A DNA stretch of 34,409 nt from a virus. Position 1 is the stretch's first letter; every line of letters starts with the position of its first letter. This document shows, one piece after another, positions 7,971-24,884 of the stretch. The translations under genes and the position numbers were made by a program. The stretch is taken from IMG/VR virus record IMGVR_UViG_3300031963_000523, positions 1 to 34,409 of that record; one strand, 5' to 3'. The notes under the pieces were generated by a model. The model was not told the DNA's origin and did not search any database. It saw only the letters and a list, made by a program, of their open reading frames with translations.

Positions 7971-8702
7971 ATGACCCTGCTAACGCTGCTCCAATCTCCC
8001 GGCAGCGGAGGCAACACGGGGGCCGTGTCAAAGACGCTTGAAAGCGTCACGCTTCAGGCAACTGGAACGGTTGCTGCAGGGGCAAGTGGTAGCGTTGTAG
8101 TTTCACTTTCCCTGGCAAGCCTGTCGGCAAGTGGAAGCTTGGCGGGTGGGGCTGTAACGGGCTCCCTTTCCAAGACCCTTGGCGGGGTTTTGCTTTCCTC
8201 TGCAGCCGTTGTCCCCGAGCCTCCTGCCCCGCCGGCAGCGGTGTCTTCCGGGTCCACGGGCGGGGGAGGGGCTGCAAGCTTCTACCGCGGCAAGTACCGC
8301 GGCGAGTTGCGAAAAGCCATTGAAAGCGCGGTTCGCTCCGCAAGTGGCGAGACAAGGGCGCAGCGGCGCAAGCGCACGCAGAGGCTGAAGGCGCGGGCGC
8401 GTGAGTTTGTAGAGGTCTTCGACATCGAGGTTCCGCAGGCGCGGGTTTTTGTCGAAGCGCCGGAGCTTGGCGGCCTCGAGGTCATCCGCCGGCAGATCCT
8501 CGACCTGTCCCGCAATCTGGCGGGGGTGCGCGAGCAAGCGCAGCAACGCGAGGAAGACCGATTAAGGAATGAAGCGGAGACCGCCCGCATGTTGCAGGCG
8601 GCGTTGTTGTCTTATCTGGAAGAGATGGGACGTATCGAGCAGCGTGAGGAAGACGACGTGATCTCCCTCATCGTGGCTTTGGATGCAAGAGAGAGGATGT
8701 GA
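7971..8702 (+). CDS. Repeat plus coiled-coil structural protein
   Basis: A 243-residue protein. Residues about 15-85 hold two related repeats of the form SKTLxxVxLxAxGTV (VSKTLESVTLQATGTVA and LSKTLGGVLLSSAAVV), a type seen in phage tail-associated proteins. A Pro/Gly linker (PEPPAPPAAVSSGSTGGGG) follows. The C-terminal half (about 105-243) is strongly helical and charged, with RRKRTQRLKARAREF and a long coiled coil rich in Arg, Glu and Gln. One internal stretch (ELRKAIESAVRS) loosely recalls the tag motif but is not at a terminus. It ends the surface module; its stop overlaps the next start (TGATG). Confidence 0.68.
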   Translation: MTLLTLLQSPGSGGNTGAVSKTLESVTLQATGTVAAGASGSVVVSLSLASLSASGSLAGGAVTGSLSKTLGGVLLSSAAVVPEPPAPPAAVSSGSTGGGGAASFYRGKYRGELRKAIESAVRSASGETRAQRRKRTQRLKARAREFVEVFDIEVPQARVFVEAPELGGLEVIRRQILDLSRNLAGVREQAQQREEDRLRNEAETARMLQAALLSYLEEMGRIEQREEDDVISLIVALDARERM

Positions 8703-9067
8703 TGGCTGAGAAGCAAAACACTCCAAAAAGATATTACACTCGAGGCGGGCGGGAGGTCACGCGCGACGGACAGCTTTTGGAAGAGCAACTTCTCCCGGAC
8801 AATCGAGACATTTTTGAAAAGGCGTTGGACACGGCAACTCCGTTGGCTGCTGGATATCTTGGAGCAAAAATAGGGTCCAAAATTGCAAGGCTGCCTTTAC
8901 GCAAAAGGGATTACTCGGAAGGAAGAGTCCCAATTGACGATTGGCTCGCGCGCGGGCTCGGCGGCGGCTACGGCTTTGCTGGCGGATTTGCCAACACCAA
9001 TACCGCAATACAAGAAAAGAATTTGAAGCGCCGCGGAGCTGATGCTGTTCGTAGGCGAAAGAATTAA
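8702..9067 (+). CDS. RDIFEKALD-tagged glycine-zipper protein (paralog A)
   Basis: A 121-residue member of the dispersed small-protein family. The ATG at 8702 overlaps the preceding stop (TGATG), is preceded by GAGAGG and is preferred over the GTG one codon upstream. Order: a charged N-terminus of about 33 residues; the motif NRDIFEKALD at about 35-44; a first glycine/alanine segment ATPLAAGYLGAKIGSKIA; a basic loop; a second segment RGLGGGYGFAGGFA; and a basic tail RRRKN. The motif is nearly identical to those at 9777, 12965 and 18290. Membrane association is inferred from the zipper spacing. No enzymatic residues stand out. Confidence 0.72.
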   Translation: MAEKQNTPKRYYTRGGREVTRDGQLLEEQLLPDNRDIFEKALDTATPLAAGYLGAKIGSKIARLPLRKRDYSEGRVPIDDWLARGLGGGYGFAGGFANTNTAIQEKNLKRRGADAVRRRKN

Positions 9068-9077
9068 GGAAATAACG

Positions 9078-9395
9078 ATGGCACGTTCCCGGCATTGCGA
9101 CATCTGCAAAGGGTGGCATGACATGGAAGAGCCTTGGCCCACCGCGTGCCTCGGGCATTACCGCAGGCGGGGTGAGGCCAATTCAAAGTCCATGCACGTC
9201 ATGGGCGACATGCAGCCTTACAAGAACGTCGTGGACGGCACCGTGATCGGCGGCCGCAAGCAGCACCGCGATTTCCTGAGGTCACGCGGCCTTGTGGAGG
9301 TCGGCAACGAGAAGATCGAGCAGCGTTACCAGGCTCCGCCCACCCCCGTGAATGACATCAAGCGGGCAATGGATGAGCTTGGATACAAGGGGTAA
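9078..9395 (+). CDS. Small zinc-binding-type phage protein with C-terminal DIKRAM tag
   Basis: A 105-residue protein. ATG 9078 is chosen because AAGGA lies 7 bases upstream; an earlier in-frame start would overlap the previous gene. Cys7-x2-Cys10, His14, Cys24 and His27 form a probable zinc site in the segment CDICKGWHDMEEPWPTACLG. The following MHVMGDMQPYKNVVDGTVIG block is typical of a small phage protein family found beside head genes. The last residues, TPVNDIKRAMDELGYKG, resemble the tag on neighbouring proteins although the Arg before DI is replaced. The core family is widespread in phages but its function is unknown to me. Confidence 0.7.
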   Translation: MARSRHCDICKGWHDMEEPWPTACLGHYRRRGEANSKSMHVMGDMQPYKNVVDGTVIGGRKQHRDFLRSRGLVEVGNEKIEQRYQAPPTPVNDIKRAMDELGYKG

Positions 9396-9400
9396 AAAAC

Positions 9401-9814
9401 ATGGCGTTTCCTGCGCGCAGAAAAGATGATGGTTACGACGCTTACAAACGGCAGGTCGGCAAGCATGAAACCACGCGGCCCTCGCGTGTTCCCACCACGG
9501 TAGGCGCTGGCCGGGAAAAAAGAGCCATGTATTGGGAAACGGACCCTGAGAAAATCATGGAGTTCCGCAAGCAGTACATCGCCCGATACGGCAAGGAGCC
9601 TGATTGGGATATTGAAATCATGCCCGGGGGAACCGGCATTTTCGGGAATAAGGTGCCTTCGTCCATTTATGGCGACAGAGGCAATTTCAAGCCTGCAAAG
9701 TGGAAGTCTGCCTATACAAAGGGCCGCCCGGCCTCCAAACCATCAGAGCGCGCTGAAATAAGGGCTGCAATCCTGCGTGCGATTGAAACTGGAAAATCAG
9801 ACGAAATCGAATGA
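9401..9814 (+). CDS. Hypothetical basic protein with a weak C-terminal tag
   Basis: A 137-residue basic, mostly hydrophilic protein. The centre reads YWETDPEKIMEFRKQYIARY, then a glycine-rich turn and IFGNKVPSSIYGDRGNF. Near the C-terminus RAEIRAAILRAIETGKS is a looser version of the tag, lacking the Asp. It starts 5 bases after the previous stop. I do not recognise a family. Its neighbours are all small accessory proteins, so a virion accessory role is likely but unproven. Confidence 0.6.
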   Translation: MAFPARRKDDGYDAYKRQVGKHETTRPSRVPTTVGAGREKRAMYWETDPEKIMEFRKQYIARYGKEPDWDIEIMPGGTGIFGNKVPSSIYGDRGNFKPAKWKSAYTKGRPASKPSERAEIRAAILRAIETGKSDEIE

Positions 9815-10184
9815 GCGAAGACAAAGGCGGAAGAAAGAAGACGCACGCGATGTGTTTGAGAAAGCCTTGGACGACGGGTCTTTGACATTTAATGGCGATC
9901 AAGAGCTTCTTGACTTCTCTGCCATCCTTGGAGGCCTGATTGGCGCGGGTGTTGCAGGAACCGTTGGCAGGGCTGCAACGCGTGGATTAGGTATGCGCCG
10001 CAGCGGGTTCTTGATTGAGGTGCCGTTGCTCGCTGGTGGCGCTTACGCAGGTGGCAAGACGGCGCATGATGCCGCAAAGGCGCACATTGCCCAGCGCAAG
10101 AAGCACAAGGACGACGCAGGCGACGATGCCTTTGACCAATTGAAAAGATTGCAAGAGCGTCAAAGCAGGACGCGCAAGAGATAA
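9777..10184 (+). CDS. RDVFEKALD-tagged glycine-zipper protein (paralog B), start uncertain
   Basis: About 135 residues if read from GTG 9777, overlapping the previous gene by 38 bases. Content fits the family: ARDVFEKALDDG near residue 24, zipper ILGGLIGAGVAGTVGRAATRG, short loop, second segment LLAGGAYAGGKTAHDA, charged stretch, tail SRTRKR. The natural start is in doubt. An ATG at 9811 overlaps the upstream stop (ATGA) as in other genes here and would encode MSEDKGG, like the MSEKEDP of the paralog at 18290. That ATG is in a different frame and meets a stop after 24 codons. One missing base in the purine run 9825-9840 would join the two. It could be a real indel, a sequencing error or recoding. 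Confidence 0.6.
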   Translation: MRLKLENQTKSNERRQRRKKEDARDVFEKALDDGSLTFNGDQELLDFSAILGGLIGAGVAGTVGRAATRGLGMRRSGFLIEVPLLAGGAYAGGKTAHDAAKAHIAQRKKHKDDAGDDAFDQLKRLQERQSRTRKR

Positions 10185-10210
10185 ACTCCAGATTATTCAA
10201 GACTGACAGG

Positions 10211-10234
10211 CCGCCCCTCACCGGGCGGTTTTTT
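10211..10234 (+). terminator. Rho-independent terminator upstream of the scaffold gene
   Basis: CCGCCC (10211-10216) and GGGCGG (10223-10228) form a perfect 6-bp GC stem with a 6-base loop, followed at once by six T. It lies after the tagged small genes and before the scaffold start at 10294. Confidence 0.85.
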
Positions 10235-10293
10235 GTTGTCGCGGCAACGCGGCGGGAAACGAGTAACCCCAACCTCGATACGGAGCATACCCC

Positions 10294-11382
10294 ATGTCCC
10301 CTGATGTTTACGACGCCACCGAAGATTTCGATGTGATGGCTGGTGACGACGAAGACTACACGCCCGAGATTGACGCCCCGGATGACGAGGGCGAAGATGA
10401 AACCCTCGAGGCGGCTGATGAGGATATTGGGCCGGAAGACGAAGAGGATCCGGATGGGGATGAGGACGAAGAGGAACAAGAGCTAGCCGAAGACGGCGAG
10501 GACGAGGGCGAGGACGAGGACGAAGACGAAGACGAAGACGACGGTCCAGACCCGATCGACCCTCCCCCCAACTGGCCGCAGCAAGAGCAGGCTTTCTTCC
10601 GGGAGCTGCCTCCGGAGCTCCAGCACGCCTATCTCGACCGTGCAAAGCACATGATGGCGGACTACACCCGCAAGACGCAGGAAATCGCCCGCGTCCGGCA
10701 AGGCTATCAGGAGCTCGAGCGGGTCATAGCTCCCCACGTCCAGCAATGGGCCTTGAATGGCATGGGGCCTGCGCAGGCCATGCAGCAGCTCATTGCGCTG
10801 TCTGACTATGCCACCAAGAGCCCGCAGGAGTTCATCAAGTATTTCGCCAATCTTCGCGGCGTCGATCTCCAAGCCCTCGCCATACCGGCGCAGGAAGAGT
10901 ACATCGACCCGCAAGTGGCTGCGTTGCAGCAGCAGCTTGCCGGCGTTCAACAGCAGTTGAACTACACCAGCCAGGCTCAAGCCTACGCGCAGCAAGTTGC
11001 CCAGCAACAGCAGTACACCCAGGCGTTTGAAGAAACGAATGGGGCCATCGACAACTTTGCAAGCCAGGTCGGTCCTGACGGCAAGCCGCTCTATCCATAC
11101 TTCAACCAGCTTGAAGAAGATATGTCGGCGCTCATTGAGACCGGTCGCGCCCAGACGCTCCACGAGGCTTATGAAACCGCCAAGTGGGCCAACCCGTATA
11201 CGCGCTCCAAGCTTCTTGCCCAGTCCCGTGCGCGGGATAACAGGCTGACACGGCAGCGCGCGGAGCAGGCCCGGATGGCGGCGTCAAGCATCACTGGATC
11301 CTCGGCAATGTACGGCGAGCAATCCACCGAGGGCATGTCAACGCGCCAGCTTCTGGAAGCGGCGTCGGCAGGCCTGATCTGA
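10294..11382 (+). CDS. Capsid scaffolding protein
   Basis: A 362-residue protein directly upstream of the major capsid gene. Residues about 7-85 are an extreme Asp/Glu tract. A PPPNWPQQEQAFFRELPPE segment follows, the usual conserved start of the folded part of scaffold proteins of this class. The remainder is helical and Gln-rich (about 200-250). The C-terminal region is basic (SRARDNRLTRQRAEQARMA) and is likely the coat-binding end. The scaffold guides coat assembly and leaves before DNA packaging. It is the first gene after terminator 1, with a leader of about 60 bases. I see no convincing promoter in that leader. Confidence 0.85.
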   Translation: MSPDVYDATEDFDVMAGDDEDYTPEIDAPDDEGEDETLEAADEDIGPEDEEDPDGDEDEEEQELAEDGEDEGEDEDEDEDEDDGPDPIDPPPNWPQQEQAFFRELPPELQHAYLDRAKHMMADYTRKTQEIARVRQGYQELERVIAPHVQQWALNGMGPAQAMQQLIALSDYATKSPQEFIKYFANLRGVDLQALAIPAQEEYIDPQVAALQQQLAGVQQQLNYTSQAQAYAQQVAQQQQYTQAFEETNGAIDNFASQVGPDGKPLYPYFNQLEEDMSALIETGRAQTLHEAYETAKWANPYTRSKLLAQSRARDNRLTRQRAEQARMAASSITGSSAMYGEQSTEGMSTRQLLEAASAGLI

Positions 11383-11409: not shown

Positions 11410-12375
11410 ATGCCCAGTCCCGGTTTGGACGAAATTGTCACGACCACGCTCCGCTATCGCTCGGGCAAGCTTCGTGACAACATGAGCAAGAACATTGCTC
11501 TTCTCTCACGCCTTCAGGAACGTGAAAACGTCGCTCCTGTCTCCGGCGGTCGCTCGATCGTTGAGGAGCTTGAGTACGCTGAAAACTCCACGTTCATGTA
11601 CTACAGCGGCGATGAAACGCTGAACGTCATGAACTCGGATGTGTTCACGGCCGCGGAGTTCGATTGGAAACAGTGCGCCGTCGCCGTCAAGATCAACGGC
11701 CTCGAGCTCCTGAAGAACTCCGGCCGCGAGAAGGTCATCGACCTGCTCGAAGCCCGCATCAAGAACGCCGAAAAGACCATGCTCAACAACCTGAGCACGG
11801 GTGTCTATTCGGACGGCACCGGTACGGGTGGCAAGCAGATCGGCGGTCTGCAGCTTCTTGTGTCGGACGCCGGCACGGGCACGGTTGGTGGCATCAACTC
11901 CACGACCTATCCGTTCTGGCAGAACCAGGTGTATGATTTCAGCGCCAATGGCGTCTCGGCTTCGGCCCTGACGATCCAGGACGCGATGAACTCGCTCTAC
12001 CTGGCCACCTCTCGTAACCGCGACACGGTTGACCTGATCGTGGCTGATAACACCTACTTCGGCTTCTACTGGAAGTCGCTGCAGGCTATCCAGCGCGTGA
12101 CGGATGACAAGCTTGCCTCGGCAGGCTTCCAGACCCTGAAGTTCATGGGCGCGGATGTTGTGTTCGACGGTGGGTTCTCCGGCACGGCGCCGGCGGCCCA
12201 TATGTATTTCCTCAACACCAACTACATCAAGTTCCGCCCGCATCGTGACCGCAACATGGTCCCGATGAACCCGGACCGGTTCAGCGTCAATCAGGACGCT
12301 ATGGTGAAGCTGATCGGATGGGCCGGCAACATGACCTGCAGCAATCGCTCGCTGCAGGGCGTCATTGTCGCTTGA
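11410..12375 (+). CDS. Major capsid protein
   Basis: A 321-residue coat protein with a good GAGG ribosome site. The N-terminal region begins with helix-forming residues (LRYRSGKLRDNMSKNIALLS). Then come SGGRSIVEELEYAEN and FDWKQCAVAVKINGLEL, a beta-strand and helix pattern shared by HK97-fold coat proteins of this lineage. Later segments NRDTVDLIVADNTYFGFYW and the near-terminal NQDAMVKLIGWAGNMTCSN are also typical. It forms the icosahedral shell. Position between scaffold and decoration protein supports the call. There is no sign of a fused protease domain, and no protease gene is seen in the window. Confidence 0.88.
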   Translation: MPSPGLDEIVTTTLRYRSGKLRDNMSKNIALLSRLQERENVAPVSGGRSIVEELEYAENSTFMYYSGDETLNVMNSDVFTAAEFDWKQCAVAVKINGLELLKNSGREKVIDLLEARIKNAEKTMLNNLSTGVYSDGTGTGGKQIGGLQLLVSDAGTGTVGGINSTTYPFWQNQVYDFSANGVSASALTIQDAMNSLYLATSRNRDTVDLIVADNTYFGFYWKSLQAIQRVTDDKLASAGFQTLKFMGADVVFDGGFSGTAPAAHMYFLNTNYIKFRPHRDRNMVPMNPDRFSVNQDAMVKLIGWAGNMTCSNRSLQGVIVA

Positions 12376-12391
12376 TAGGGGGGATGCACAC

Positions 12392-12898
12392 ATGACGAAG
12401 TTCATTATCACTGACACCTTGATCGGTGGTCAGGACATTGCCTCCACTGAAACCACGGCGCAGCACCCGCTCGGCACGATTGTCCGCGCGCGGCATCTGA
12501 CAACTCTGGGCGGCGGTGAGTTCATCTACCTGTTGGGCGTTGCCAGCACGGAAGTTGGCTCGCTGGTCACGTACAACGCGACCACGTACCAGACGACGCT
12601 TGCTCCGACCAACGCCACAACGGACGGCCCTCCGGTCGCTGTGGCCATGTCGGCGAACGTGGCCAGCCAGTACGGCTGGTATCAGATCCAGGGCCTTGCG
12701 GTTATCAAGAAGACCGCGGTTGCGGTGACGCCGCAGTCTGGCATCTGGCTGTCCGGCACGGCGGGGCGCGTCTATGTGACGGCTTCGACGGGCAAGGGCA
12801 TTGTTGGCGCGCGTAGTGCCAACCTTGCCACGGTTGCCTCTGGCACCTCGACGGTGACGGTTCTCATCAACCGTCCGTCCATCGAGACTGCCACGTAA
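12392..12898 (+). CDS. Probable capsid decoration/stabilising protein
   Basis: A 168-residue beta-rich protein immediately after the coat gene. ATG 12392 has a G-rich ribosome site 8 bases upstream and is preferred over the in-frame start at 12365, which lies inside the coat gene. Features are alternating hydrophobic strands, GTIVRARHLTTLGGGEFIYL near the N-terminus and a compact C-terminal half with TASTGKGIVGARSANLATV. Position, size and composition match proteins that bind the outside of HK97-fold shells. It is the last gene before terminator 2. The specific family is not certain. Confidence 0.7.
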   Translation: MTKFIITDTLIGGQDIASTETTAQHPLGTIVRARHLTTLGGGEFIYLLGVASTEVGSLVTYNATTYQTTLAPTNATTDGPPVAVAMSANVASQYGWYQIQGLAVIKKTAVAVTPQSGIWLSGTAGRVYVTASTGKGIVGARSANLATVASGTSTVTVLINRPSIETAT

Positions 12899-12906
12899 GC
12901 GCGATT

Positions 12907-12940
12907 GGGCTGGCTCTCTCAAAGGGGCCAGCCCTTTTTT
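12907..12940 (+). terminator. Rho-independent terminator downstream of the capsid genes
   Basis: GGGCTGGC (12907-12914) pairs with GCCAGCCC (12927-12934) in a perfect 8-bp stem, with a 12-base loop and a run of six T. Together with the terminator at 10211 it brackets the scaffold, coat and decoration genes. Confidence 0.88.
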
Positions 12941-12964
12941 CTCCTAGCAAGGAATAAGCGCTCC

Positions 12965-13285
12965 ATGAGCAAAACATCTGTACGCAAGGACATTGAGAAG
13001 TCAGTAGAAGAGACTGACGATCGGGACATTTTTGAGAAGGCGCTTGATTACGCTCCGCTTGCAGGTGGGGTGGCTGGCGGATTGGTTGGGCGCCGTGTCA
13101 TGTCAAATGTTATCAAGCGCCGCGCAGTGCGGGAGGGAAAAATGAGCCCTCAGGAGTTGCGCGAGTTGCGTAGATTGCAGGTTCCGTCAAGTGATGTTGA
13201 CGGGAGCATCATCTTTGTTGGCTCTGGCGCCGGAGCTGGCACTTTGGCGGGTATGACCGCCAAGGAGCGTTACCGCAAAAAGTAA
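12965..13285 (+). CDS. Double-tagged glycine-zipper protein (paralog C)
   Basis: A 106-residue protein that carries both motifs. SVRKDIEKSVEE (about 5-16) is followed by DDRDIFEKALDYAP (about 18-31). It continues with zipper LAGGVAGGLVGRRV, a charged helical loop containing MSPQELRELRRLQ, a second segment FVGSGAGAGTLAGMTA and a basic tail RYRKK. The loop resembles LTPKEMAEYRKAQ in the paralog at 18290, so the two are true relatives rather than convergent. The ATG at 12965 has AAGGA 11 bases upstream. It is the first gene after terminator 2. Membrane insertion or virion packaging is inferred, not shown. Confidence 0.74.
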   Translation: MSKTSVRKDIEKSVEETDDRDIFEKALDYAPLAGGVAGGLVGRRVMSNVIKRRAVREGKMSPQELRELRRLQVPSSDVDGSIIFVGSGAGAGTLAGMTAKERYRKK

Positions 13286-13294
13286 TTTTCTCCC

Positions 13295-13570
13295 ATGAGC
13301 ACCGTCCGCGACGACATCAAGCGCGCCATGACGCCTGCATGGCAACGCTCCGAAGGGCAGAACCCAGAAGGCGGGCTCAACGCAAAGGGCAGGGCGTCTT
13401 ACAACCGTGCGACGGGCGGCAACCTGAAGCCGCCCCAGCCTGAAGGTGGACCGCGCAAGCGTTCATTCTGCGCGCGCATGGGCGGGATGAAGAAGAAGCT
13501 CACCTCTGCCGCAACAGCCAATGATCCGGACAGCCGGATCAACAAGGCTCTCAGGAAATGGGATTGCTGA
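13295..13570 (+). CDS. Conserved phage small protein (SFCARM family) with N-terminal tag
   Basis: A 91-residue protein. Residues 3-13 are the tag TVRDDIKRAM. The rest is a widespread small phage family: PAWQRSEGQNPEGGLNAKGR, then the SFCARMGGM block and the ending INKALRKWDC. I recall this family as DUF6321, mainly from marine phages; the number should be checked. Its function is unknown to me. The conserved Cys residues at 58 and 91 could matter for fold or metal binding. The stop overlaps the next ATG (TGATG). The tag precedes the conserved core and appears to be an addition to it. Confidence 0.75.
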   Translation: MSTVRDDIKRAMTPAWQRSEGQNPEGGLNAKGRASYNRATGGNLKPPQPEGGPRKRSFCARMGGMKKKLTSAATANDPDSRINKALRKWDC

Positions 13571-13767
13571 TGAACAAGGGCTATAGCGTCCGCAAGGACA
13601 TAAACCGCGCTCTGAAGGCCCCCGTATGGGAGCGGGCGAACCCGAAGAGAAAGAGCGAGCCCCTGTCATCGGGAGCAAAGGCTGCAGCAAGGGCAAGGGC
13701 AGAACGAGCGGGCCGGCCCTATCCCAACCTGATCGACAATATGTGGGCGGCAAGGAAGCAAGGCTGA
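13570..13767 (+). CDS. Conserved phage small protein (RPYPNLIDN family) with N-terminal tag
   Basis: A 65-residue basic protein. The TGATG overlap sets the start at 13570 rather than 13558. Residues 6-15 are the tag SVRKDINRAL, then APVWERANPKRK, an Ala/Arg-rich helix (GAKAAARARAERAG) and the ending RPYPNLIDNMWAA. The core after the tag matches a small family common in phages, often next to the SFCARM-type protein as here. PAWQRSE in the neighbour and PVWERAN here occupy the same place after the tag, which suggests related architecture. Function unknown. Confidence 0.72.
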   Translation: MNKGYSVRKDINRALKAPVWERANPKRKSEPLSSGAKAAARARAERAGRPYPNLIDNMWAARKQG

Positions 13768-13770
13768 AGA

Positions 13771-15846: not shown

Positions 15847-15905
15847 TCCAAAATCCTGACCACTCCGCCAATTCCGGCGGAAGTCATTTGAAGAAGGAGA
15901 ACTCC

Positions 15906-16517: not shown

Positions 16518-16520
16518 AAC

Positions 16521-16874: not shown

Positions 16875-16888
16875 AAAGGGTATGACCC

Positions 16889-17164
16889 ATGTACAGTGTA
16901 AAGAACCAACCGCTGCAGATGGCCCCGACTGGCCGCATGGGGCAGTACAAGCCCAAGACCGCCAAGTCCTATCCCGTGCAGGGCAGGGGCACCTTGCAGG
17001 ATCTGCCGCGGTCAGTGGTCAGGCCCATTCCTCCGGCTTACCGGGATGAGTTTGGCAAGCCCACCCGCCCCGGACAGCGCAGCACGGTGCGCGATGACCT
17101 CATGAAGGCCATAGTGACATCGAAGCAGAAGGGCATGGATGCAATGAGGGGGCGTGGGTACTAA
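16889..17164 (+). CDS. Small basic Pro-rich protein with C-terminal STVRDDLMKAI tag
   Basis: A 91-residue basic protein, disordered-looking for the first 65 residues (many Pro, Gly, Lys). The tag STVRDDLMKAI is at about 69-79, followed by a Lys/Arg-rich tail ending MRGRGY. The tag here is at the C-terminal end, the opposite side from most of its neighbours. The stop overlaps the adaptor start (TAATG). No known domain is seen. Confidence 0.66.
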   Translation: MYSVKNQPLQMAPTGRMGQYKPKTAKSYPVQGRGTLQDLPRSVVRPIPPAYRDEFGKPTRPGQRSTVRDDLMKAIVTSKQKGMDAMRGRGY

Positions 17165-17862
17165 TGTCCCTGCTCACGATCGTCAACCGCGCGCAGGCAA
17201 TGCTCAACCTGCCTGTGACATCCACGGTCTACTCAAGCACGGGCGAGACGCAAAGACAGCTTCTCGCCCTGTGCAACATGGCCGGCGACGTGTTGATGCG
17301 GGAGCACGATTGGCAGGCATTGGTGACGGAGCAATCCTTCACCACGGTTGCGACCGAGCAGCAGACGGGGCACACGCTCCCATCTGACCTTGACCGGATC
17401 ATAAGCGAGACCTTGTGGAACCGGTCAACGACTGACCCTGTCTTTGGCCCTCTTACAGCCCAAAGTTGGCAGGCGCAGAAGGCGGACGTGGTTTCAACCG
17501 TGTGGTCTCAGTACAGGATCAGAGGAAATTCGTTCTGGTTCCTGCCCGCGCCTTCTGCGGGAGAGAGCGTCTACTACGAATATGTCAGCAACAAGTGGTG
17601 CCAGTCCTCGGGCGGCACGGCGCAAAGTGCTTGGGCGGCGGACTCTGACACGGGCCGCATTCCGGAGCATCTTCTTACTCTTGGCCTTGCCTGGCGCTGG
17701 CTGGAAGCCAAGGGCCTCGACTATTCGCAGCGTTACGACGAATACGAGCGCGAGAAGGGCAAGATCATCGCGCGGGATGGAACACGCAAGAAGCTCAACG
17801 TGGCAGGCCCAACCCTTCAGGGTCTTGGACGTGGGCGCATACCAGAAGGATCGTGGAGCTGA
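17164..17862 (+). CDS. Head-tail adaptor protein, P22 gp4-like
   Basis: A 232-residue protein with the usual opening of adaptor proteins (SLLTIVNRAQAMLNLP). The helical core includes LALCNMAGDVLMREHDWQ, then LPSDLDRIISETLWN and the IPEHLLTLGLAWRWLEAKGL segment common in phage adaptors. Such proteins form the ring under the portal that joins the tail nozzle. The position after head genes and before the nozzle supports this. Length is in the normal range for gp4-like proteins. The start is fixed by a TAATG overlap. Confidence 0.8.
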   Translation: MSLLTIVNRAQAMLNLPVTSTVYSSTGETQRQLLALCNMAGDVLMREHDWQALVTEQSFTTVATEQQTGHTLPSDLDRIISETLWNRSTTDPVFGPLTAQSWQAQKADVVSTVWSQYRIRGNSFWFLPAPSAGESVYYEYVSNKWCQSSGGTAQSAWAADSDTGRIPEHLLTLGLAWRWLEAKGLDYSQRYDEYEREKGKIIARDGTRKKLNVAGPTLQGLGRGRIPEGSWS

Positions 17863-18224
17863 TGCAAGGAAAGTCCATTCGCTCTGACATCGAGCGAGCC
17901 GCTTCAGAGGTTGGCGCTTCAGAGCGCCGCTCCGTGCCCATGCCTCGCTACAAGCCGCGTGAGGAGGAGAGCTACAATCCAAATTGGACAGATCAGCAAG
18001 CCGCTCAGAACGCGCAAACTCTTTATCGCCGCGGGGTGCGGGCAGGGGAGACGGGCGAGGGTGAGGCAGAGGTCCTGGATTTCATCCGCAGAAGTGGAGA
18101 CACGCCATACGGGCAGTATATGGCGCGTGGGTATGAGGAGGGCAAGCGGCGCAGGCCGCGCCAAATGCCTCGCCCGGCTCGCCCGGGGCAGATCAAGCAG
18201 CCTTACGATGATATACCTCGCTAG
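17862..18224 (+). CDS. Basic protein with N-terminal SIRSDIERA tag
   Basis: A 120-residue protein. ATG 17862 (TGATG overlap with the adaptor stop) is preferred over GTG 17853. Residues 5-13 are SIRSDIERA. The remaining sequence is charged, with NWTDQQAAQNAQTLYRRG and a basic Pro-rich tail (RRRPRQMPRPARPG). There is no hydrophobic segment, unlike the zipper paralogs, so the tag is not tied to membrane proteins. Function unknown. Confidence 0.66.
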   Translation: MQGKSIRSDIERAASEVGASERRSVPMPRYKPREEESYNPNWTDQQAAQNAQTLYRRGVRAGETGEGEAEVLDFIRRSGDTPYGQYMARGYEEGKRRRPRQMPRPARPGQIKQPYDDIPR

Positions 18225-18289
18225 CCTATCAACGGCTCAAGAAGGCGCAGGTTTAACCGCAGGTTCAGACAGCAAGAGGGTAGAAATCC

Positions 18290-18673
18290 ATGAGTGAAAA
18301 AGAAGATCCAGAAAGCGATGATCGGGATGTTTTCGAGAAGGCATTGGACTACGCCCCGTTTGCCGGGATGGTGCTTGGCGGCATGCTTGGGTGGCGTTCC
18401 GGTCGGAAGGACGGCATCAAGGCATGGAAAAAGGTTGATAGCCTTGAGGCCAAGATAAGGAAGCTCGAGGCCAAGGGGCGAAATCCGAATGTTGGGTTGA
18501 CGCCAAAGGAAATGGCCGAATATCGAAAGGCGCAAGAGGAGCTTCAATATGCGCTTGGGAAAGGAGGCGAAAACATTGCAGGGCGCGTGATGATTAAAGC
18601 GCCGCTCGGCGCAGTAATTGGCCACACAGCCGGCAGCGCAGCAAAGGACGCTTATCCAAAGCGGAGGAAGTAG
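18290..18673 (+). CDS. RDVFEKALD-tagged glycine-zipper protein (paralog D)
   Basis: A 127-residue member of the dispersed family. DDRDVFEKALDYAP is at about residues 10-23, almost identical to the copy at 12965. Next come zipper FAGMVLGGMLGWRSGRK, a charged helical loop with LTPKEMAEYRKAQ, a second segment APLGAVIGHTAGSAA and a basic tail PKRRK. A GAGGG ribosome site is present. It sits between the adaptor-region tagged protein and a large ejection-type protein, which fits a virion role. Predicted as a two-segment membrane hairpin; this is inference. Confidence 0.74.
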   Translation: MSEKEDPESDDRDVFEKALDYAPFAGMVLGGMLGWRSGRKDGIKAWKKVDSLEAKIRKLEAKGRNPNVGLTPKEMAEYRKAQEELQYALGKGGENIAGRVMIKAPLGAVIGHTAGSAAKDAYPKRRK

Positions 18674-18676
18674 TCC

Positions 18677-19972
18677 ATGCCGTGGAAGCCAACAGACCTT
18701 AGCCGCACGGACCAGGTCCGGCAGTTCTATGCCCAGCGTCCCGACCTTCAGGCTTTCTTCTCGGATCCGGCTGCGCGGGAAGACCTCGCGCGCCGGATGA
18801 GGGAGGCGGGGATTGACGTGACGGCTGATGACCTGACGGACCCGAAAGTTCTTGCAGAGCTTGGTTCTGTTGATGATCCGGAACTGGAGAAGCTGTTTCC
18901 CTTTACTCAAGACAGCATTGCCGATCGGAAGCGCTCCTACTACCGCAAAAACCCGGGTCAGGATCCTCAGTCAACCACCTCCCGGGTTCTTGAGTTCCTT
19001 GGCCTTGACGAGCCGTACTACAACGACTCCCGCTCTTATGACTACGCCCAGAAGAAGTTCCAGAACGAGGGCAATCCCGACATGAGCTGGTTCTTGCAGC
19101 CTACAGAGGCGCAGGAGCAGGTAATGTCAGGCTCCATGCCAAGCGTCTACGGGGCTGAAGATGACCGCACCGGATCCGAGATGGCGCAAGGCGCTATCCT
19201 CGGCGCCTTGAACTGGCCTCTCTTTGGCGCGGAGGAAGAGGTTGTCGCGGGCGTTGATGCGCTGGGGGAGGGCAAGTCTTATGATAAAGCCCTTGCAGAG
19301 TCCCGCCGCGTCAAGGACCGCCATAGTCTGCACACACCCCTCTGGTCTCAGGTTCCGGAGTGGATCGCAAGCGCCGGCTTGGCTCTTCCCGTCTTTGCTG
19401 GGGGGCAGGCGGTAGCGGCGCGCGGTCTTTCGGCGGGGAGGCAAGCTGCAGGGTTCGCCCCCAAGGCGACATCTCCGACGGGTCAGGCCGTTGAAGAAAT
19501 CGCAACTGCGTCTCCTGTAGCGGCGGCGGATGCAAGCTTCTATCAGCTTGGAGAAGCGGATGGAGACCTTTCCCAGAGGGCGGAGCAGTTTGATCCTTAT
19601 TGGACCGCCAGCGTTGCAGCTTTCCCCGCCATTCTTGGCGCGGCCAACCTTGGGAGGGGGATAGTATCTGATGGGTATCGCAAGGGTAAGGAGCTGTGGC
19701 GGAGGGTTACGGGGTCCGACAAGAAATCAAAGGCGCAGCCAAAGAAATCAAAGCGGCTTGATGTTGCAGCCCTGACCAAGCAGAGCGGATCTCCCTTTGA
19801 GACCCCGCAGGGTTCGCCCCGTCGCCCTGAGCAGCCGCGCGTCATCCCCGACATCGGGCCCGTCCGCCCACCGCGGGAGGCCCCTTTGCGCCCATTGCAG
19901 CCCTCTGTGCAGGGGGGATCGGTGCGCGGGGACATTGAGCGGGCGTTGAGCAGCAAGGGGCGTAGGCGCTGA
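18677..19972 (+). CDS. Ejection-type internal protein with C-terminal GSVRGDIERAL tag
   Basis: A 431-residue protein. N-terminal residues about 1-130 are charged and helical. Residues about 178-212 hold FGAEEEVVAGVDALGEGKSY, a segment shared with the 759-residue protein at 26493 (WGPEVLAGVDTAVKGGDY). Hydrophobic Ala/Gly stretches follow at about 235-255 and 315-330. The last 110 residues are basic and Pro-rich, ending in the tag SVRGDIERAL and GRRR. This looks like an internal virion protein ejected with DNA. The role is inferred from composition and from the relative at 26493. Its stop overlaps the nozzle ATG (TGATG). Confidence 0.7.
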   Translation: MPWKPTDLSRTDQVRQFYAQRPDLQAFFSDPAAREDLARRMREAGIDVTADDLTDPKVLAELGSVDDPELEKLFPFTQDSIADRKRSYYRKNPGQDPQSTTSRVLEFLGLDEPYYNDSRSYDYAQKKFQNEGNPDMSWFLQPTEAQEQVMSGSMPSVYGAEDDRTGSEMAQGAILGALNWPLFGAEEEVVAGVDALGEGKSYDKALAESRRVKDRHSLHTPLWSQVPEWIASAGLALPVFAGGQAVAARGLSAGRQAAGFAPKATSPTGQAVEEIATASPVAAADASFYQLGEADGDLSQRAEQFDPYWTASVAAFPAILGAANLGRGIVSDGYRKGKELWRRVTGSDKKSKAQPKKSKRLDVAALTKQSGSPFETPQGSPRRPEQPRVIPDIGPVRPPREAPLRPLQPSVQGGSVRGDIERALSSKGRRR

Positions 19973-21510
19973 TGCTTCAGATCCGTGGCCGGCAGATCAG
20001 CAGGGGGCCTGCAGCGGTTGAGCGCCCCTTGCCTACACCCGTTGGCGGGTGGAACGCGCGCGATCCGCTCGAGAGCATGAAGCCATTTGATGCGGTGATC
20101 CTGGAGAACTGGTTCCCCCGGCAGAGCGATGTGACTGTCAGGGGTGGATACACCCTTCATTGCAATACGGGAGAGGGTTCGAATAGCGTCCAGACCCTTG
20201 CAGAGTGGAAGGCCACGACCAATCGCCGCCTTATTGCGGGTATAAACGGGAAGCTCATCAACGTATCCACATCAACACCTTCAACGCTCGGGACCGGGTT
20301 TTCGAACAACAGGTGGAAGTGGGTCAATTTTGCGGAGAGGCTGTTTCTTGTAAACGGAACGGACGCGCCGCAAGATTACAACGGGACAAGCCTCTCGGCC
20401 ACGGCATGGTCTGGGTCAGGGCTGACCATCACCAACCTCTCGGACGTTACCGTGTTCAAGGAGCGGCTGTTCTTCATCGAAAAGAACACGCTGAATTTCT
20501 GGTATGCGGGGTTGCAGTCCATCACGGGCACGCTGACAAAGTTTCCTCTTCAGTACACGGGAAGCTTTGGCGGCACGCTCCAGCAGATCGGAACCATCAC
20601 CACGGACGGTGGCGATGGGAGGGATGACCTTATTGCCTTCTTTCTTTCCTCTGGCGAGGTCATCATCTATCAGGGGTCGGATCCTGGAAATGCAAATTCA
20701 TGGGCACGAATAGGGACGTTCTTTCTCGGGCCCCCGATCGTCGGATCCAACCTGCAGAGATATGGCTCTGACCTGATTGCGATTACGGACGGCTCGTATA
20801 CGCCAATCACAAAGGTCTTGCCCTTTGGAAGGTCGCAGCCTTCCTCGCTGGACCTGTCAGACAAGATCAGCCTTGCAGTGTCGGAGGCCATGCGGCTTTA
20901 CCGGGACAATGCCGGGTGGCAGGTGATCTTCTACCCGCGCGGGCGCATGCTCATTTTCAACGTGCCGCGGTCAACGGCCGCCTTCGACCAGCACGTCATG
21001 AATACGGACACGCAGAGCTGGTGCAAGTTCACGGGTTGGAACTTTCCTGTCTTCGCCCTCTTCGGAAACGACCTTTACGCCGGCGGTACGGATGGGAAGG
21101 TCTACAAGTGCAATGACGGGTTTTCCGATAACGGAACCGCCATTGTGGCTGATGCTCAGACTGCGTGGAATTACTTCGGCTCTTCAGACAGGCTCAAGAA
21201 CTTCACCATGGCGCGGATTATCTTTGGCGCCGTGAGTGATCCCGGAGCCCTTGTTTCGATCGGCACGGATTTTGACATTTCCGTTCCCAGCTCAACCGTC
21301 TCCACGTCGGCCGTGACAACGGGAGGGGTATGGGACGTTGCAATATGGGATCAGGACATATGGGGCGGAGCCACGCAGGCGATAAAGGGATGGCAAGGGG
21401 TGAACGGCTTGGGCTACTCAGCTTCGATGAGGTTGCGCGTCTCGTTGACCAGCCAAGGCGTAAGCTGGAGGTCATCGGCAATGGTCATGAAGCCCGCCGG
21501 CCTGGTCTGA
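19972..21510 (+). CDS. Tail nozzle/DNA stabilisation protein, P22 gp10-like
   Basis: A 512-residue protein with the hallmark start of the family: a short N-terminus, then PTPVGGWNARDPLESMKPFD and AVILENWFPRQSDVTVRGGY. The remaining sequence is propeller-like with repeated beta units (for example RLFLVNGTDAPQDYNGT, ERLFFIEKNTLNFWYAG, NDLYAGGTDGKVYKCNDG). In P22 the gp10 hexamer is the nozzle beneath the gp4 ring and closes the DNA channel. The order adaptor, accessory genes, nozzle supports it. The 3' end overlaps the acetyltransferase reading frame. Confidence 0.83.
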   Translation: MLQIRGRQISRGPAAVERPLPTPVGGWNARDPLESMKPFDAVILENWFPRQSDVTVRGGYTLHCNTGEGSNSVQTLAEWKATTNRRLIAGINGKLINVSTSTPSTLGTGFSNNRWKWVNFAERLFLVNGTDAPQDYNGTSLSATAWSGSGLTITNLSDVTVFKERLFFIEKNTLNFWYAGLQSITGTLTKFPLQYTGSFGGTLQQIGTITTDGGDGRDDLIAFFLSSGEVIIYQGSDPGNANSWARIGTFFLGPPIVGSNLQRYGSDLIAITDGSYTPITKVLPFGRSQPSSLDLSDKISLAVSEAMRLYRDNAGWQVIFYPRGRMLIFNVPRSTAAFDQHVMNTDTQSWCKFTGWNFPVFALFGNDLYAGGTDGKVYKCNDGFSDNGTAIVADAQTAWNYFGSSDRLKNFTMARIIFGAVSDPGALVSIGTDFDISVPSSTVSTSAVTTGGVWDVAIWDQDIWGGATQAIKGWQGVNGLGYSASMRLRVSLTSQGVSWRSSAMVMKPAGLV

Positions 21511-21935
21511 AGCTTGTATTTGACGAGGATCAGGACGTTGCCGATTTCGTGATCGGTCAGTTGCCTCATCCCATCACGATTGATGAGTTCGGGCAGTTCA
21601 CGACGATCGGGATCGCGGACGAGGCAGGCAAGTTGATTGCTGGTGCGGTCTATCATCGCTGGCGCAAGTTTGACTGCGAGTTGAGCTTTGCTGCCTCGAG
21701 CCCGCGGTGGTGCCGGAAGGGTATTGTCCGGGCCTTGTTTCACTACCCGTTCGTGCAGCAGGGCTTGCAGCGCATGACGCTGATTATCGGACGGAACAAC
21801 AAGCGCGCGATCAGGTTGAACACGGGGCTTGGGTTCAAGATCGAGGGAGCCGTGCGACGTGCTTATGACGGTATGAACGATGCGCTCATTCTCGGGATGC
21901 TCCGGGAAGAGTGCAAATGGATAAGGAGACATTAA
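21390..21935 (+). CDS. GNAT-family N-acetyltransferase
   Basis: The conserved part reads from about 21510 to the stop: FTTIGIADEAGKLIAGAVYH, then RWCRKGIVRALFHYPF (acetyl-CoA-binding region) and IIGRNNKRAIRLNTGLGFKI, ending the GNAT fold. It would acetylate a small molecule or protein amine. The start is uncertain. ATG 21390 is the nearest standard in-frame start but makes a 121-base overlap with the nozzle gene. The conserved homology begins near CTG 21507, which overlaps the nozzle stop. GNAT genes beside nozzle genes occur in related phages, function unknown. About 141 to 181 residues depending on start. Confidence 0.7.
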   Translation: MARGERLGLLSFDEVARLVDQPRRKLEVIGNGHEARRPGLKLVFDEDQDVADFVIGQLPHPITIDEFGQFTTIGIADEAGKLIAGAVYHRWRKFDCELSFAASSPRWCRKGIVRALFHYPFVQQGLQRMTLIIGRNNKRAIRLNTGLGFKIEGAVRRAYDGMNDALILGMLREECKWIRRH

Positions 21936-22262
21936 ATGCCTGGACCAGCTACTTCATTCAACAAGAAAAAGTACAACAAGGACGGAACAGAAGCCACGCG
22001 ATCCATTCGCGAGGATATTGGCAAAGCCCTTGAAGATGCTTTTGACGACCCGTTTGTGCGCGGGGCAGCGGGTGCTGTTGCGGGCGCGGCTGTTGGTCGA
22101 AAGATGTTTCGAAGCGTCGGGAAGAGATCAAAGAACGTCCATCCAGAAGACGTGGGACAGATGGGATTTGTCGGGGGAGCCATCGGCGGCACGGGTGGGT
22201 TCGTTCTTGGTTCAGGGTTCGGAAACAAAATGAAGCCCCAAGGTGGAAAGAGGCGCAAATAA
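21936..22262 (+). CDS. Tagged glycine-zipper protein (paralog E)
   Basis: A 108-residue protein with an AAGGAG ribosome site. The tag SIREDIGKALEDAF is at about 23-36. It is followed by zipper VRGAAGAVAGAAVGRKM, a basic loop, a second segment GFVGGAIGGTGGFVLGSGFG and the basic tail GGKRRK. It lacks FEKALD but keeps the family plan, with the other tag in the same place. It therefore links the two motif groups. The stop is directly followed by the next ATG. Role likely in the virion, unproven. Confidence 0.7.
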   Translation: MPGPATSFNKKKYNKDGTEATRSIREDIGKALEDAFDDPFVRGAAGAVAGAAVGRKMFRSVGKRSKNVHPEDVGQMGFVGGAIGGTGGFVLGSGFGNKMKPQGGKRRK

Positions 22263-23582
22263 ATGGGCAAGGGTGGAGGAGGCAGCGCGCCAGCCGCGCC
22301 AGATCCAGTCAAGACATCTGAGGCGCAGGCGGATGCCTACATCAAGGCTGCAAAGCAATCGAGCATCCTGAACAATCTGTCTCAATTCACGCCTTACGGG
22401 AACATCACGTTCGACAAGGACGAGGAAGGCGTTCCAATCGCGCAGCGCGTGTCTCTGTCTCCTGCCCAGCAAGCGGCCTTTGACGCTCAGACGCAGTTGC
22501 AGGGCACTCTGTCCAACGCCGCCGCGCAGTTGGCAGGCTCCGTGCCTACAGGCCCCTTTGGCCTCCCGACCAATCTGCCGGGATACACAACGGGCTTGGA
22601 CCTTGATGGTGCTCCGGACTACATGCGAAGCCTCAACCTTGCCAACGTGCCTAACGCACCAGGGACGGGTGATTTCTCCGCGGACCGGAACACCTACGAA
22701 CAGGCAATGTTCAACCGCGGCATGAGCCTGATGCGACCTGAGTTTGAGCAGCAGGGAAGGGATACGCGGCAGATGCTTGCAGACCGTGGGCTGCCCATTA
22801 CGGGCGAGGCGTACAACACGGAGATGGACCGTCTTGGCCGGTCTCAGGGCGAGCAGATGGGCCGGATTGCGGCTGATGCGCTTGCTGCCGGAGCGCAAGA
22901 GCAATCGAGGATGTACGGCCTTGGTACGGACGCAAGGCAGAGGGCGATTGCGGAGCAACTCCAGCAAGGCCAGATTTCTCAACAGGCGCGGCAGGGTATC
23001 ATCTCGGAGGAATTGCAGAACGCGCAGCTTGCACAGCAAGCGCGCCAAGCAATGACCAATGAGGCTTTGCTTCAGTACAACGCGCCGGCGCAGGGTGTGG
23101 CAACGCTTCTTGGCGCGAGCCCGCGAACCCCGACCGTTCAGGGCGGAAACATCTACCAGCAGGGTGTGCAGGCTCCGGACGTGCAGGGCAACATCTGGAA
23201 CTCGTACAATTCGCAGCTCAACGCCTATAACCAGCGGCAAGCGAACAACAATTCCATGTGGTCTGGCATCGGCTCAATTGTTGGAAGCATTGCGAGCATC
23301 CCGGGCATTTTCTCGGACCGGAACATGAAGACCAAGGTGCGGTCTGCGGACACCATCCTAAACCGGATGGAGAAGATCCCGATCAAGTCATGGCAGTACA
23401 AGCCGGGCTCTGTCCCCGGTGACAATGGTGCGCGCCATGTCGGACCTATGGCTCAGGACTTCAAGGGTTTCTTTGGTTTGGGGGATGGGCGGTCCATTCC
23501 CGTTGTTGATGCAGTGGGCGTCAACATGGCAGCAACGCAGCAACTTGCTCGCAAAGTGAAGCGCATGGAGGCGCGGCGCTGA
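22263..23582 (+). CDS. Virion protein with C-terminal Peptidase_S74-type chaperone domain
   Basis: A 439-residue protein. The N-terminus (GKGGGGSAPAAPDPVKTSEA) and the FTPYGNITF segment belong to a common phage protein family near nozzle and ejection genes. The middle is Gln/Ala-rich and helical. The last 89 residues resemble the intramolecular chaperone domain S74: Ser351-Asp352 in FSDRNMKTKVR, then WQYKPG, HVGPMAQDFKGFFG and a terminal VNMAATQQLARKVKRME helix. In this family the chaperone trimerises the protein and cuts itself off just before the Ser. Self-cleavage is inferred from the conserved Ser-Asp. Confidence 0.75.
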   Translation: MGKGGGGSAPAAPDPVKTSEAQADAYIKAAKQSSILNNLSQFTPYGNITFDKDEEGVPIAQRVSLSPAQQAAFDAQTQLQGTLSNAAAQLAGSVPTGPFGLPTNLPGYTTGLDLDGAPDYMRSLNLANVPNAPGTGDFSADRNTYEQAMFNRGMSLMRPEFEQQGRDTRQMLADRGLPITGEAYNTEMDRLGRSQGEQMGRIAADALAAGAQEQSRMYGLGTDARQRAIAEQLQQGQISQQARQGIISEELQNAQLAQQARQAMTNEALLQYNAPAQGVATLLGASPRTPTVQGGNIYQQGVQAPDVQGNIWNSYNSQLNAYNQRQANNNSMWSGIGSIVGSIASIPGIFSDRNMKTKVRSADTILNRMEKIPIKSWQYKPGSVPGDNGARHVGPMAQDFKGFFGLGDGRSIPVVDAVGVNMAATQQLARKVKRMEARR

Positions 23583-23872
23583 TGCCAAAGATTTCAGGCT
23601 CCTACCACGGCATTACATCGCAACCTCAGTTCCAAACTTACCCCACGGCGGGGATGCTGCAGGTTCCACAGCAGCCTCTTGCACCTCCGCCCCCTCCGCC
23701 TCCGCCACCGCCTCCGTCGCAAGTGCCAACAGGCACGCTGCCAACAACTCCAACGACGCAACCCACATTGCCGTCCATCGCCCCGCTCGGGCCTGTGCTC
23801 CCTGGCGCGGACACCATCACGCCAGAGCGCGAGCGGCTGATCCGTTCCGTCATGAATACATACGAGAGGTAA
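23582..23872 (+). CDS. Proline-rich protein with an 11-Pro run
   Basis: A 96-residue, disordered-looking protein that starts in a TGATG overlap. It has eleven consecutive Pro at about 35-45 and a Thr/Pro-rich stretch. A charged C-terminal helix RERLIRSVMNTYER resembles the tag in shape but not in key residues. A long Pro run would need EF-P for efficient translation. It is the first of three Pro-rich proteins in a row. I do not recognise a function. Confidence 0.66.
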   Translation: MPKISGSYHGITSQPQFQTYPTAGMLQVPQQPLAPPPPPPPPPPPSQVPTGTLPTTPTTQPTLPSIAPLGPVLPGADTITPERERLIRSVMNTYER

Positions 23873-23873
23873 G

Positions 23874-24308
23874 ATGACGCCCTTCTTCCAGCAGTATCCT
23901 CCATCCCAGACAATGCCCGGCTTTGAGCAGGTTGGTCCGGGGGCCATGCCAAAGCCCATGCCCAATGTGCCCCAGATCAACCCCGGCATGCCTAAGCCGA
24001 TGGGTGACATTCCTCAAATCAATCCCGGCATGCCAAAGCCCCCGGTTGACATCCCCCAGATCAATCCGGGGATGCCGCCGGCTGTAAGCCCTGCAAATCC
24101 CATGATGCCGAAGCCTCAGACAGGCGCTCCGCAGATCAATCCCGGGCCTACAGGAAACCTGACTCCGGGGCGCGGGGCTCTCGTCAACGCCATCATGAAC
24201 CGCACACAAGCCCCACGCCCGCAGATGGGCAACTACCGCCCGCCGCAGGGCATGCGCCCGATGGGCCAGCCACAGTCCCCGCTCAACAACCGTCCAAGGA
24301 GGCCCTGA
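23874..24308 (+). CDS. Proline-rich repeat protein
   Basis: A 144-residue protein with a 14-residue repeat PKPxxxxPQINPGM three times in tandem (residues 26-67) and a degenerate fourth copy (79-92). After it comes a conserved-looking GRGALVNAIMNRTQ helix and a basic, Pro-rich tail. Disordered or extended structure is likely. Tandem copies differ at many third bases, so the repeat is old or under protein-level selection. The role is unknown; internal virion or linker protein is a guess from neighbours. Confidence 0.66.
   Translation: MTPFFQQYPPSQTMPGFEQVGPGAMPKPMPNVPQINPGMPKPMGDIPQINPGMPKPPVDIPQINPGMPPAVSPANPMMPKPQTGAPQINPGPTGNLTPGRGALVNAIMNRTQAPRPQMGNYRPPQGMRPMGQPQSPLNNRPRRP
23949..24074 (+). 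repeat. Three tandem 42-bp (14-residue) repeats
   Basis: Three in-frame copies encoding PKPxxxxPQINPGM follow one another without gaps, with a further degenerate copy at 24108-24149. Silent differences between copies show they are not recent duplications. Confidence 0.75.
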
Positions 24309-24314
24309 TCCGTC

Positions 24315-24884
24315 ATGGCGTTTTTCAACCCCAACCAGCAGTCCCAGTTGATGGGCCAGATGTTCTCCAACCCGCAAGGGCAGGGCGGGATGATGCCCCC
24401 CATGGCCGGTCAGGGCGGCGTCAACTCAGGCCCCAACATCGGCCCGTCCTTTGCCGGCCCGGAAGGCCCGCAGGGGGTATCAAGCCCGAGAGACCAATTT
24501 GGCCCGATGCCCTTCACAGGCCCCATGCCTGATTTCCAGATGGGCCCCTTCGTGCCGGGAAGTGACACGGGGATCCGCGAGCTTGGCAATGTCCCGGTCA
24601 ACCCCATGCCCTACACGCCCAATGACGGCTATGGCGGAAGGCCCCCGATCGGCCCCATGCCCCTCCCGCGCCCGGGCTCGGGACCGGATGCGCAGCCCAT
24701 GCCATTCCCCTCATCGCGCGAGCATGGCGGGCGACCTCCCATGCCTGGCCGCGGGATACCCGTGAACGACGCCATCTCCGGCACGAGCCGCCCTGCGGAT
24801 GCTGCAGGCTCTGGTGCAATCTCGGATGAAGACCGTCGCCGCCTTATTGAAGCAATCCTGCGCCGCTCTTATGGCGGCATGTAA
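24315..24884 (+). CDS. Pro/Gly/Met-rich protein with a C-terminal helical end
   Basis: A 189-residue low-complexity protein: an N-terminal helix (FNPNQQSQLMGQMFSN), then long Pro, Gly and Met-rich stretches (GPMPFTGPMPDFQMGPF). It ends in DEDRRRLIEAILRRSYGGM, similar to the ends of the two proteins before it (RERLIRSVMNTYER, GRGALVNAIMNRTQ). These endings suggest a common interaction partner. I do not recognise a function. It is the third Pro-rich gene in a row. Confidence 0.66.
   Translation: MAFFNPNQQSQLMGQMFSNPQGQGGMMPPMAGQGGVNSGPNIGPSFAGPEGPQGVSSPRDQFGPMPFTGPMPDFQMGPFVPGSDTGIRELGNVPVNPMPYTPNDGYGGRPPIGPMPLPRPGSGPDAQPMPFPSSREHGGRPPMPGRGIPVNDAISGTSRPADAAGSGAISDEDRRRLIEAILRRSYGGM

Follow-up and report, generated by a model that had tools for sequence, protein, structure and literature searches.

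A short helical peptide resembling the scaffold end recurs on small late proteins of a podovirus and is probably a prohead-loading signal

Introduction

By what means internal and ejection proteins get into the procapsid is a long-standing question. In phage T4 ten residues suffice as a capsid-targeting sequence (CTS), and the internal proteins are small and basic (PMC9026906). In P22 the ejection proteins need the scaffold, staying out of shells built without it, and both their entry signal and their binding partner are unsettled (PMC8402733); the C-terminal helices of the P22 scaffold bind the coat protein (PMC9965877), and foreign cargo can be loaded into P22 shells by fusion to the C-terminal part of the scaffold (PMC9962691). 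The C-termini of the herpesvirus scaffold also bind the major capsid protein (PMC12474303). Here we describe a helix of ~10 residues that recurs, as a tag, on some twelve distinct late proteins, small and for the most part basic, of a short-tailed (podovirus) phage known from IMG/VR record IMGVR_UViG_3300031963_000523, positions 1 to 34,409; this whole stretch of 34,409 nucleotides is hereafter called the window. The best explanation of the tag, and in our judgement a probable one, is that it represents a portable prohead-loading signal mimicking the presumed coat-binding end of the scaffold. An initial annotation, made from the letters of the window, had already read the tag as a loading signal comparable in idea to the T4 CTS; this reading now appears the best supported because of a new ground, namely that the tag matches the terminal motif of the scaffold in this phage family.

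Occurrence of the tag

Proteins are designated by the first nucleotide of their gene. All seven strong copies listed in the initial annotation, as well as a looser one in 9078, are in frame in the proteins named (Table 1), and the codons differ between copies, as had been claimed. The pattern [ST][VI]R.D[IL].[RK][AS] is matched 7 times in the usable genes of the window, whereas permuting the residues inside each protein (3000 rounds) yields 0.0013 matches on average and at most a single one. The copies sit nearer to the protein ends than expected by chance (mean relative distance 0.22 vs 0.50, p = 0.0003); the terminal placement that had been proposed holds for most of them, those of 21936 (residues 23-32) and 16889 (residues 66-75 of 91) lying near the end rather than at it. 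The statement that the tagged proteins share nothing else holds for most of them, though not for all: 12965 and 21936 belong, together with 8699, 9777 and 18290, to a single glycine-zipper family, whereas between the remaining carriers the best local match is usually that of the tag itself.

The tag occurs in two dialects (flavours A and B), and scanning of the open reading frames (ORFs) of the window (~34,000 residues) with the corresponding profiles and with a profile of scaffold C-termini gave 8 flavour A, 4 flavour B and 6 scaffold-profile matches. Applied to every ORF of the phages lambda, T7 and P22 (~91,000 residues), the same profiles gave 2, 0 and 1 matches, respectively, no motif match being found in the structural proteins of P22. 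The profile search of the relatives, which had been recommended at the outset, yielded at a score of 12 as many as 217 matches in sense ORFs vs 3 antisense and 8 shuffled ones, a comparison that is partly circular, its profiles including copies from the relatives; the within-protein shuffle test and the two scaffold tests described in the next section are not circular. The motif is not equally common in random phage proteins, a finding that would have spoken against the initial annotation, either in the relatives or in lambda, T7 and P22.

The tag is retained while its carriers diverge: that of 16889 is kept in orthologues 58-74% identical overall, and that of 18677 in orthologues merely 30-32% identical; the orthologues of 17862 and 9078 were part of the same comparison. 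In most relatives the product of the 9078-type gene (Mx8p46), a small gene that precedes the scaffold gene, has the motif ~7 residues from its C-terminus, like the scaffold and 18677. As to the weaker copies that had been suggested, the scaffold profile supports that of 9401 (p = 0.0025), whereas those of 24315 (p = 0.035), 23874 (p = 0.08) and 23582 (p = 0.16) are marginal or unsupported. The C-termini of 23582-23872 (ERERLIRSVM..) and 24315-24884 (RRRLIEAILRR..) are conserved in the relative G003 and more loosely in G001, and those of 23582 and 24315 might, on evidence as marginal as these p values, constitute a third dialect. The segment GIVGDIKTAF of the 19972-type tail proteins of L020-like phages was set aside as a tag, lying in mid-protein and not near an end.

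The tag and the ends of the scaffold

The product of 10294 is the putative scaffold by virtue of its position, its acidity (net charge -58, pI 4.1), its fold, its homology to Mx8p47 (BLASTP 9e-9) and the analogy with published syntenic modules; a sequence search of solved structures returned no relative of it, and Foldseek no match. The motif stands at the end of the protein encoded by this gene, which directly precedes that of the capsid. In the relatives the scaffold C-termini read SIRGDLMRAMQAQMGAV (L014), SIEDDIRAAFQEVAGSA (L020), SIREDLLAAVRQHTGAV (L012) and SVRGSLEAAWANSSGR (Mx8p47, ...SVRGSLEAAW-), and the scaffold often starts with the motif too, as in MSDMEDDIRAAMAEV.. (L020), DDLRGDLAKAF (L014) and SLRGSLEAAM (Mx9); the scaffold of the Nitrosovibrio sp. 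Nv6 prophage has SLRDDIAAAL at its start and SIRDDIRAAM at its end. The window scaffold terminates with STRQLLEAASAGLI, of which STRQLLEAAS falls under the motif columns of the relatives both in an unguided MAFFT alignment and in the BLASTP alignment to Mx8p47. In the AlphaFold model residues 350-358 form an isolated helix behind a disordered stretch (335-342), the scaffold-terminal element being predicted to be helical and flexibly tethered.

The correspondence was found in both directions. With a profile of distant scaffold C-termini alone, built outside the window's clade, the five best-scoring of the 45 window proteins are 18677, 13295, 17862, 16889 and 21936, all of them among the seven with a strong copy. 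A cargo-only profile, in turn, gives 38 distant scaffold C-termini far higher scores (median 7.6) than the C-termini of 528 other proteins (median -8.5; p = 5e-22, a value not corrected for relatedness among the scaffolds), the 9078-type gene being prominent among the next-best C-termini. Among all ten-mers of a scaffold, the same cargo-only profile ranks the terminal one first in the window (STRQLLEAAS, 1/353), in Mx8 (1/364) and in RHph_I3_18 (1/377), and in Nitrosovibrio and Mx9 the two scaffold ends rank 1 and 2.

The carrier proteins and the portability of the tag

Eleven of the 12 tagged proteins have a pI of 9.1-11.3 and 65-137 residues, the median pI being 10.0 for the tagged and 7.2 for the other window proteins (p = 6e-5); in four relatives the carriers lean basic too, less sharply and against a comparison set that includes spurious ORFs. 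Relatives some 52 kb long have their tagged genes confined to one structural block.

The 13295 product is a DUF6321 protein (PF19846, 3.7e-22) whose domain begins at residue 22, i.e., past the tag; similarly, the phrog_34011 match to 13570-13767 starts only at residue 16. Homologues occur in 530 phage records, and the 7 that were read are all untagged. The closest of these, from Pelagibacter phage HTVC033P, is without exactly the tag segment, the rest continuing from the same residues (start MAKTPAWQRKEG.. vs MSTVRDDIKRAMTPAWQRSEG.. in the window); since a tag-less homologue exists, the tag is portable. For 13570 no homologue was found in phages by tblastn.

In the T7-like S-TIP37 and in pelagiphage HTVC304P (L133, L134) the scaffold or capsid-assembly gene has an untagged DUF6321 gene nearby, placed in the latter between scaffold and capsid, which hints that DUF6321 may be a head protein more widely. 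The tagged 18677-19972 (431 residues) is in part paralogous (28% across 208 residues) to the untagged 26493-28772 (759 residues, phrog_5880), itself a candidate ejection protein, for which homology to Mx8p57 could not be shown.

The second dialect

Flavour B, D(N/D/A)RD(I/V)FEKAL or, in its wider form, D(N/D/A/T)RD(I/V)F(E/D)KAL, had been overlooked in the initial annotation; it is carried by four small proteins (8699, 9777, 12965 and 18290) and aligns gap-free with flavour A (VRDDIKRAM / NRDIFEKAL). These four and 21936 make up one family of glycine-zipper paralogues (8699-9067, 9777-10184, 12965-13285, 18290-18673 and 21936-22262), in which 21936 has dialect A at the position where its paralogues have dialect B (BLASTP of 8699 with 21936) and 12965 has both in tandem. 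In relatives dialect B also ends unrelated small proline-rich proteins, e.g., L002 13876-14061 (..EDTRDVFEKVFGG) and L003 14879-15058. The relatives contain further members of this five-member small basic family, whose proteins are candidates for ejected membrane-pore proteins.

The structural module and its neighbourhood

Capsid, portal, scaffold and tail genes homologous to those of the Mx8/Pr lineage are present in the same order, with matches to phrog_9953 (1e-111), phrog_12082 (2.9e-198) and phrog_6013 (1e-55) and homology to Mx8p47 and Mx8p50; 17164-17862 encodes an SU10-type adaptor (SU10_adaptor PF24175, 1e-11). The capsid protein matches, by sequence, only Mic1 among solved structures, and a fold search with its model retrieved HK97-fold capsids including SU10, A-1(L) and Mic1; the model is poor (pLDDT 57.7) and too weak for a search of the binding site. 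A nucleotide search of phage records with positions 12000-22000 of the window found no near relative. No portal relative accompanied by an unrelated capsid turned up among the few portal matches, mostly already-known contigs or short fragments. In L004/G004 the tags are present, and no portal recognisably related to that of the window was found within the stretch compared.

Uninterrupted in the window, the capsid gene is interrupted in the close relatives L035 (395-2380), L005, L006/G003 and L007/G009. One insert of L035 resembles a group I intron (RF00028, with 49.4 bits vs a gathering threshold of 50, E 4.8e-11) and a second lies downstream of it, and L006 and L007 have a single one; at the gathering level Rfam gave no match in L007 or L035. 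Amid the structural genes, 13771-15846 encodes 691 residues with MptE-like (PF01973) and FkbM methyltransferase (PF05050) domains, possibly a sugar-transfer or modification enzyme of the late operon.

Table 1. Coordinates of the scaffold, the capsid protein and the tag copies in the window
Feature	Position	Strand	Remarks
Putative scaffold protein	10294..11382	+	acidic, helical, directly upstream of capsid gene, homologue of Mx8p47
Scaffold C-terminal counterpart STRQLLEAAS	11338..11367	+	predicted lone helix, residues 350-358, past disordered linker
Major capsid protein	11410..12375	+	phrog_9953, 1e-111; likely tag receptor (by analogy)
Tag A SVRKDIEKSV	12977..13006	+	residues 5-14 of glycine-zipper protein 12965-13285
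Tag A TVRDDIKRAM	13301..13330	+	N-terminus of DUF6321 protein 13295-13570; scaffold-profile rank 2
Tag A SVRKDINRAL	13585..13614	+	N-terminus of 13570-13767
Tag A TVRDDLMKAI	17084..17113	+	residues 66-75 of 91 in 16889-17164, 16 before C-terminus; scaffold-profile rank 4
Tag A SIRSDIERAA	17874..17903	+	N-terminus of 17862-18224; scaffold-profile rank 3
Tag A SVRGDIERAL	19919..19948	+	7 residues before C-terminus of 18677-19972, behind proline-rich linker; scaffold-profile rank 1
Tag A SIREDIGKAL	22002..22031	+	residues 23-32 of 21936-22262; scaffold-profile rank 5
Tag-like TPVNDIKRAM	9342..9371	+	7 residues before C-terminus of 9078-9395; end motif retained in relatives
Tag-like SERAEIRAAI	9743..9772	+	near C-terminus of 9401-9814, 13 residues from end; scaffold profile p = 0.0025
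Tag B DNRDIFEKAL	8798..8827	+	in glycine-zipper protein 8699-9067
Tag B DARDVFEKAL	9840..9869	+	in 9777-10184
Tag B DDRDIFEKAL	13016..13045	+	in 12965-13285, tandem with tag A
Tag B DDRDVFEKAL	18317..18346	+	in 18290-18673

Proposed mechanism and alternatives

According to the mechanism that we propose, the scaffold of the Mx8-like lineage would use the ~10-residue amphipathic helix S(V/I)RxD(I/L)xxA(L/M/F/W), with which it ends and often also begins, to bind the coat protein, as P22 and the herpesviruses suggest by analogy. Copies of this helix, which about a dozen small, mostly basic proteins of the late genes have acquired at either terminus in the window phage and its close relatives, would dock on the inner-shell site used by the scaffold end, most likely on the coat protein; the cargo would thereby co-assemble with the scaffold, remain inside when the scaffold exits and the DNA enters, and then be ejected or stay with the genome. 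Encapsidation and ejection of these proteins would be compatible with roles in DNA binding, in forming a membrane pore and in early host functions. As a bolder extension, which we regard as possible, though on balance doubtful, the terminal helix of the scaffold might be an open-ended address code, so that its gain at either end of a protein makes virion cargo of it; flavours A and B would perhaps each address a prohead site or layer of their own, and the clade would thus exchange a variable injected payload of ~10 proteins by swapping small tagged genes.

Several observations weigh against cargo tags that mimic the scaffold end. The scaffold copy is most diverged (STRQLLEAAS, shuffle p = 0.022) in the clade of the window, though it is there that the cargo tags are most numerous, and no N-terminal copy of the motif is seen in the scaffold of this clade; scaffold and cargo may therefore not share one site today, and the window's own scaffold copy is the weakest link of the argument. 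By ten-mer ranking, the scaffolds of 45A6 and ctMlz233 are without a clear motif. Furthermore, flavour B deviates from flavour A at two core positions and is mostly found within one paralogue family, the carrier 18677 is acidic (pI 5.8), and the role of the coat as tag receptor is suggested by analogy.

Among the other explanations, the one that survives best, although we consider it unlikely, is that the tag loads cargo by binding the scaffold itself, through helix-helix contacts and clustering of the ends, the cargo riding the scaffold core and being freed at scaffold exit. Indeed, interactions with the scaffold are believed to bring in the ejection proteins of P22 (PMC8402733), in T4 it is to the core that the internal proteins bind (PMC9026906), and basic cargo would suit a scaffold as strongly acidic as this one. 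However, binding through a shared motif must be homotypic, and one short helix that lacks a heptad repeat is poorly suited to self-association, whereas mimicry of a common ligand accounts more simply for the shared sequence.

Appreciably less probable is an assembly signal directed elsewhere, i.e., to the portal and neck or to a host membrane, protease or chaperone. The portal co-assembles with the scaffold in P22 too (PMC12005531), and several carriers have glycine-zipper, membrane-like segments; yet the tags of L004/G004 occur without a recognisably related portal in the compared stretch, and a host-directed signal fits poorly with a motif that is found on the scaffold and with carriers confined to the structural genes. 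A common origin devoid of function, whereby the small genes would be pieces or recombinants of others and owe their shared end to a single ancestor, is more improbable still: some carriers are paralogues (8699, 9777, 12965, 18290 and 21936), but the tag is N-terminal in some and C-terminal in others, its codons differ, and it is retained where the remainder of the protein has diverged to about 30%, as in the orthologues of 18677. At low thresholds many proteins contain motifs that favour a helix, e.g., DIxRAL, but a chance likeness of generic amphipathic helices has next to no probability in view of 0.0013 expected copies v 7, of 217 sense v 3 antisense matches and of the near absence of the tag from lambda, T7 and P22.

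Significance

Searches of the open-licence literature retrieved no earlier account of a tag of this kind. The loading signal proposed here would give to the question of procapsid entry an answer at the level of sequence that can be tested, the cargo bearing the scaffold's own end. If true, virion cargo would become predictable from sequence across podoviruses and prophages that form a wide and for the most part uncharacterised group, probable roles could be assigned to orphan families, e.g., the DUF6321 carriers of the window's clade, and a compact natural tag for loading nanocages would be available.

Comparison with known systems

Like the T4 CTS (IPI-IPIII, Alt), the tag is a portable peptide on the ten-residue scale carried by otherwise unrelated small basic proteins, for which prohead loading is expected here, and the set of carriers differs among related phages in T4 as well (PMC9026906). 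Unlike the N-terminal CTS, the tag is found at either terminus (N-terminal in 12965, 13295, 13570 and 17862, C-terminal in 16889, 18677, 9078 and 9401) and its sequence matches the scaffold's own ends. A further difference may be that no sign of tag removal was seen in the window and that no prohead protease family was recognised by Pfam among the window proteins scanned, many of which have no Pfam match, in a window that is possibly incomplete. Because both termini are used, no prohead protease is recognised and the scaffold is matched, the tag, which would work like the T4 CTS, is not classed as one.

With the helix-turn-helix of P22 gp8 the tag shares the principle of a C-terminal scaffold helix as coat-binding element (PMC9965877), fusion to which loads foreign proteins (PMC9962691). 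The fusions of the window, in contrast, are apparently natural and about a dozen in number, the element is predicted to be a single helix, and its motif is not matched in the P22 structural proteins. In the case of herpesvirus UL26/UL26.5 the coat-binding scaffold tail is also present on a second protein, which carries the protease (PMC12474303); there the tail is shared via overlapping reading frames, whereas the window tag is found on separate, unrelated genes and is written in different codons. Finally, the window has the gene order of the Mx8/Pr-lineage module, namely portal, small gene, scaffold, capsid, p50-like, tubeA and tubeB, together with the homologues of these genes (PMC10386132), but its clade differs in that many small genes with tags are interspersed among the core ones.

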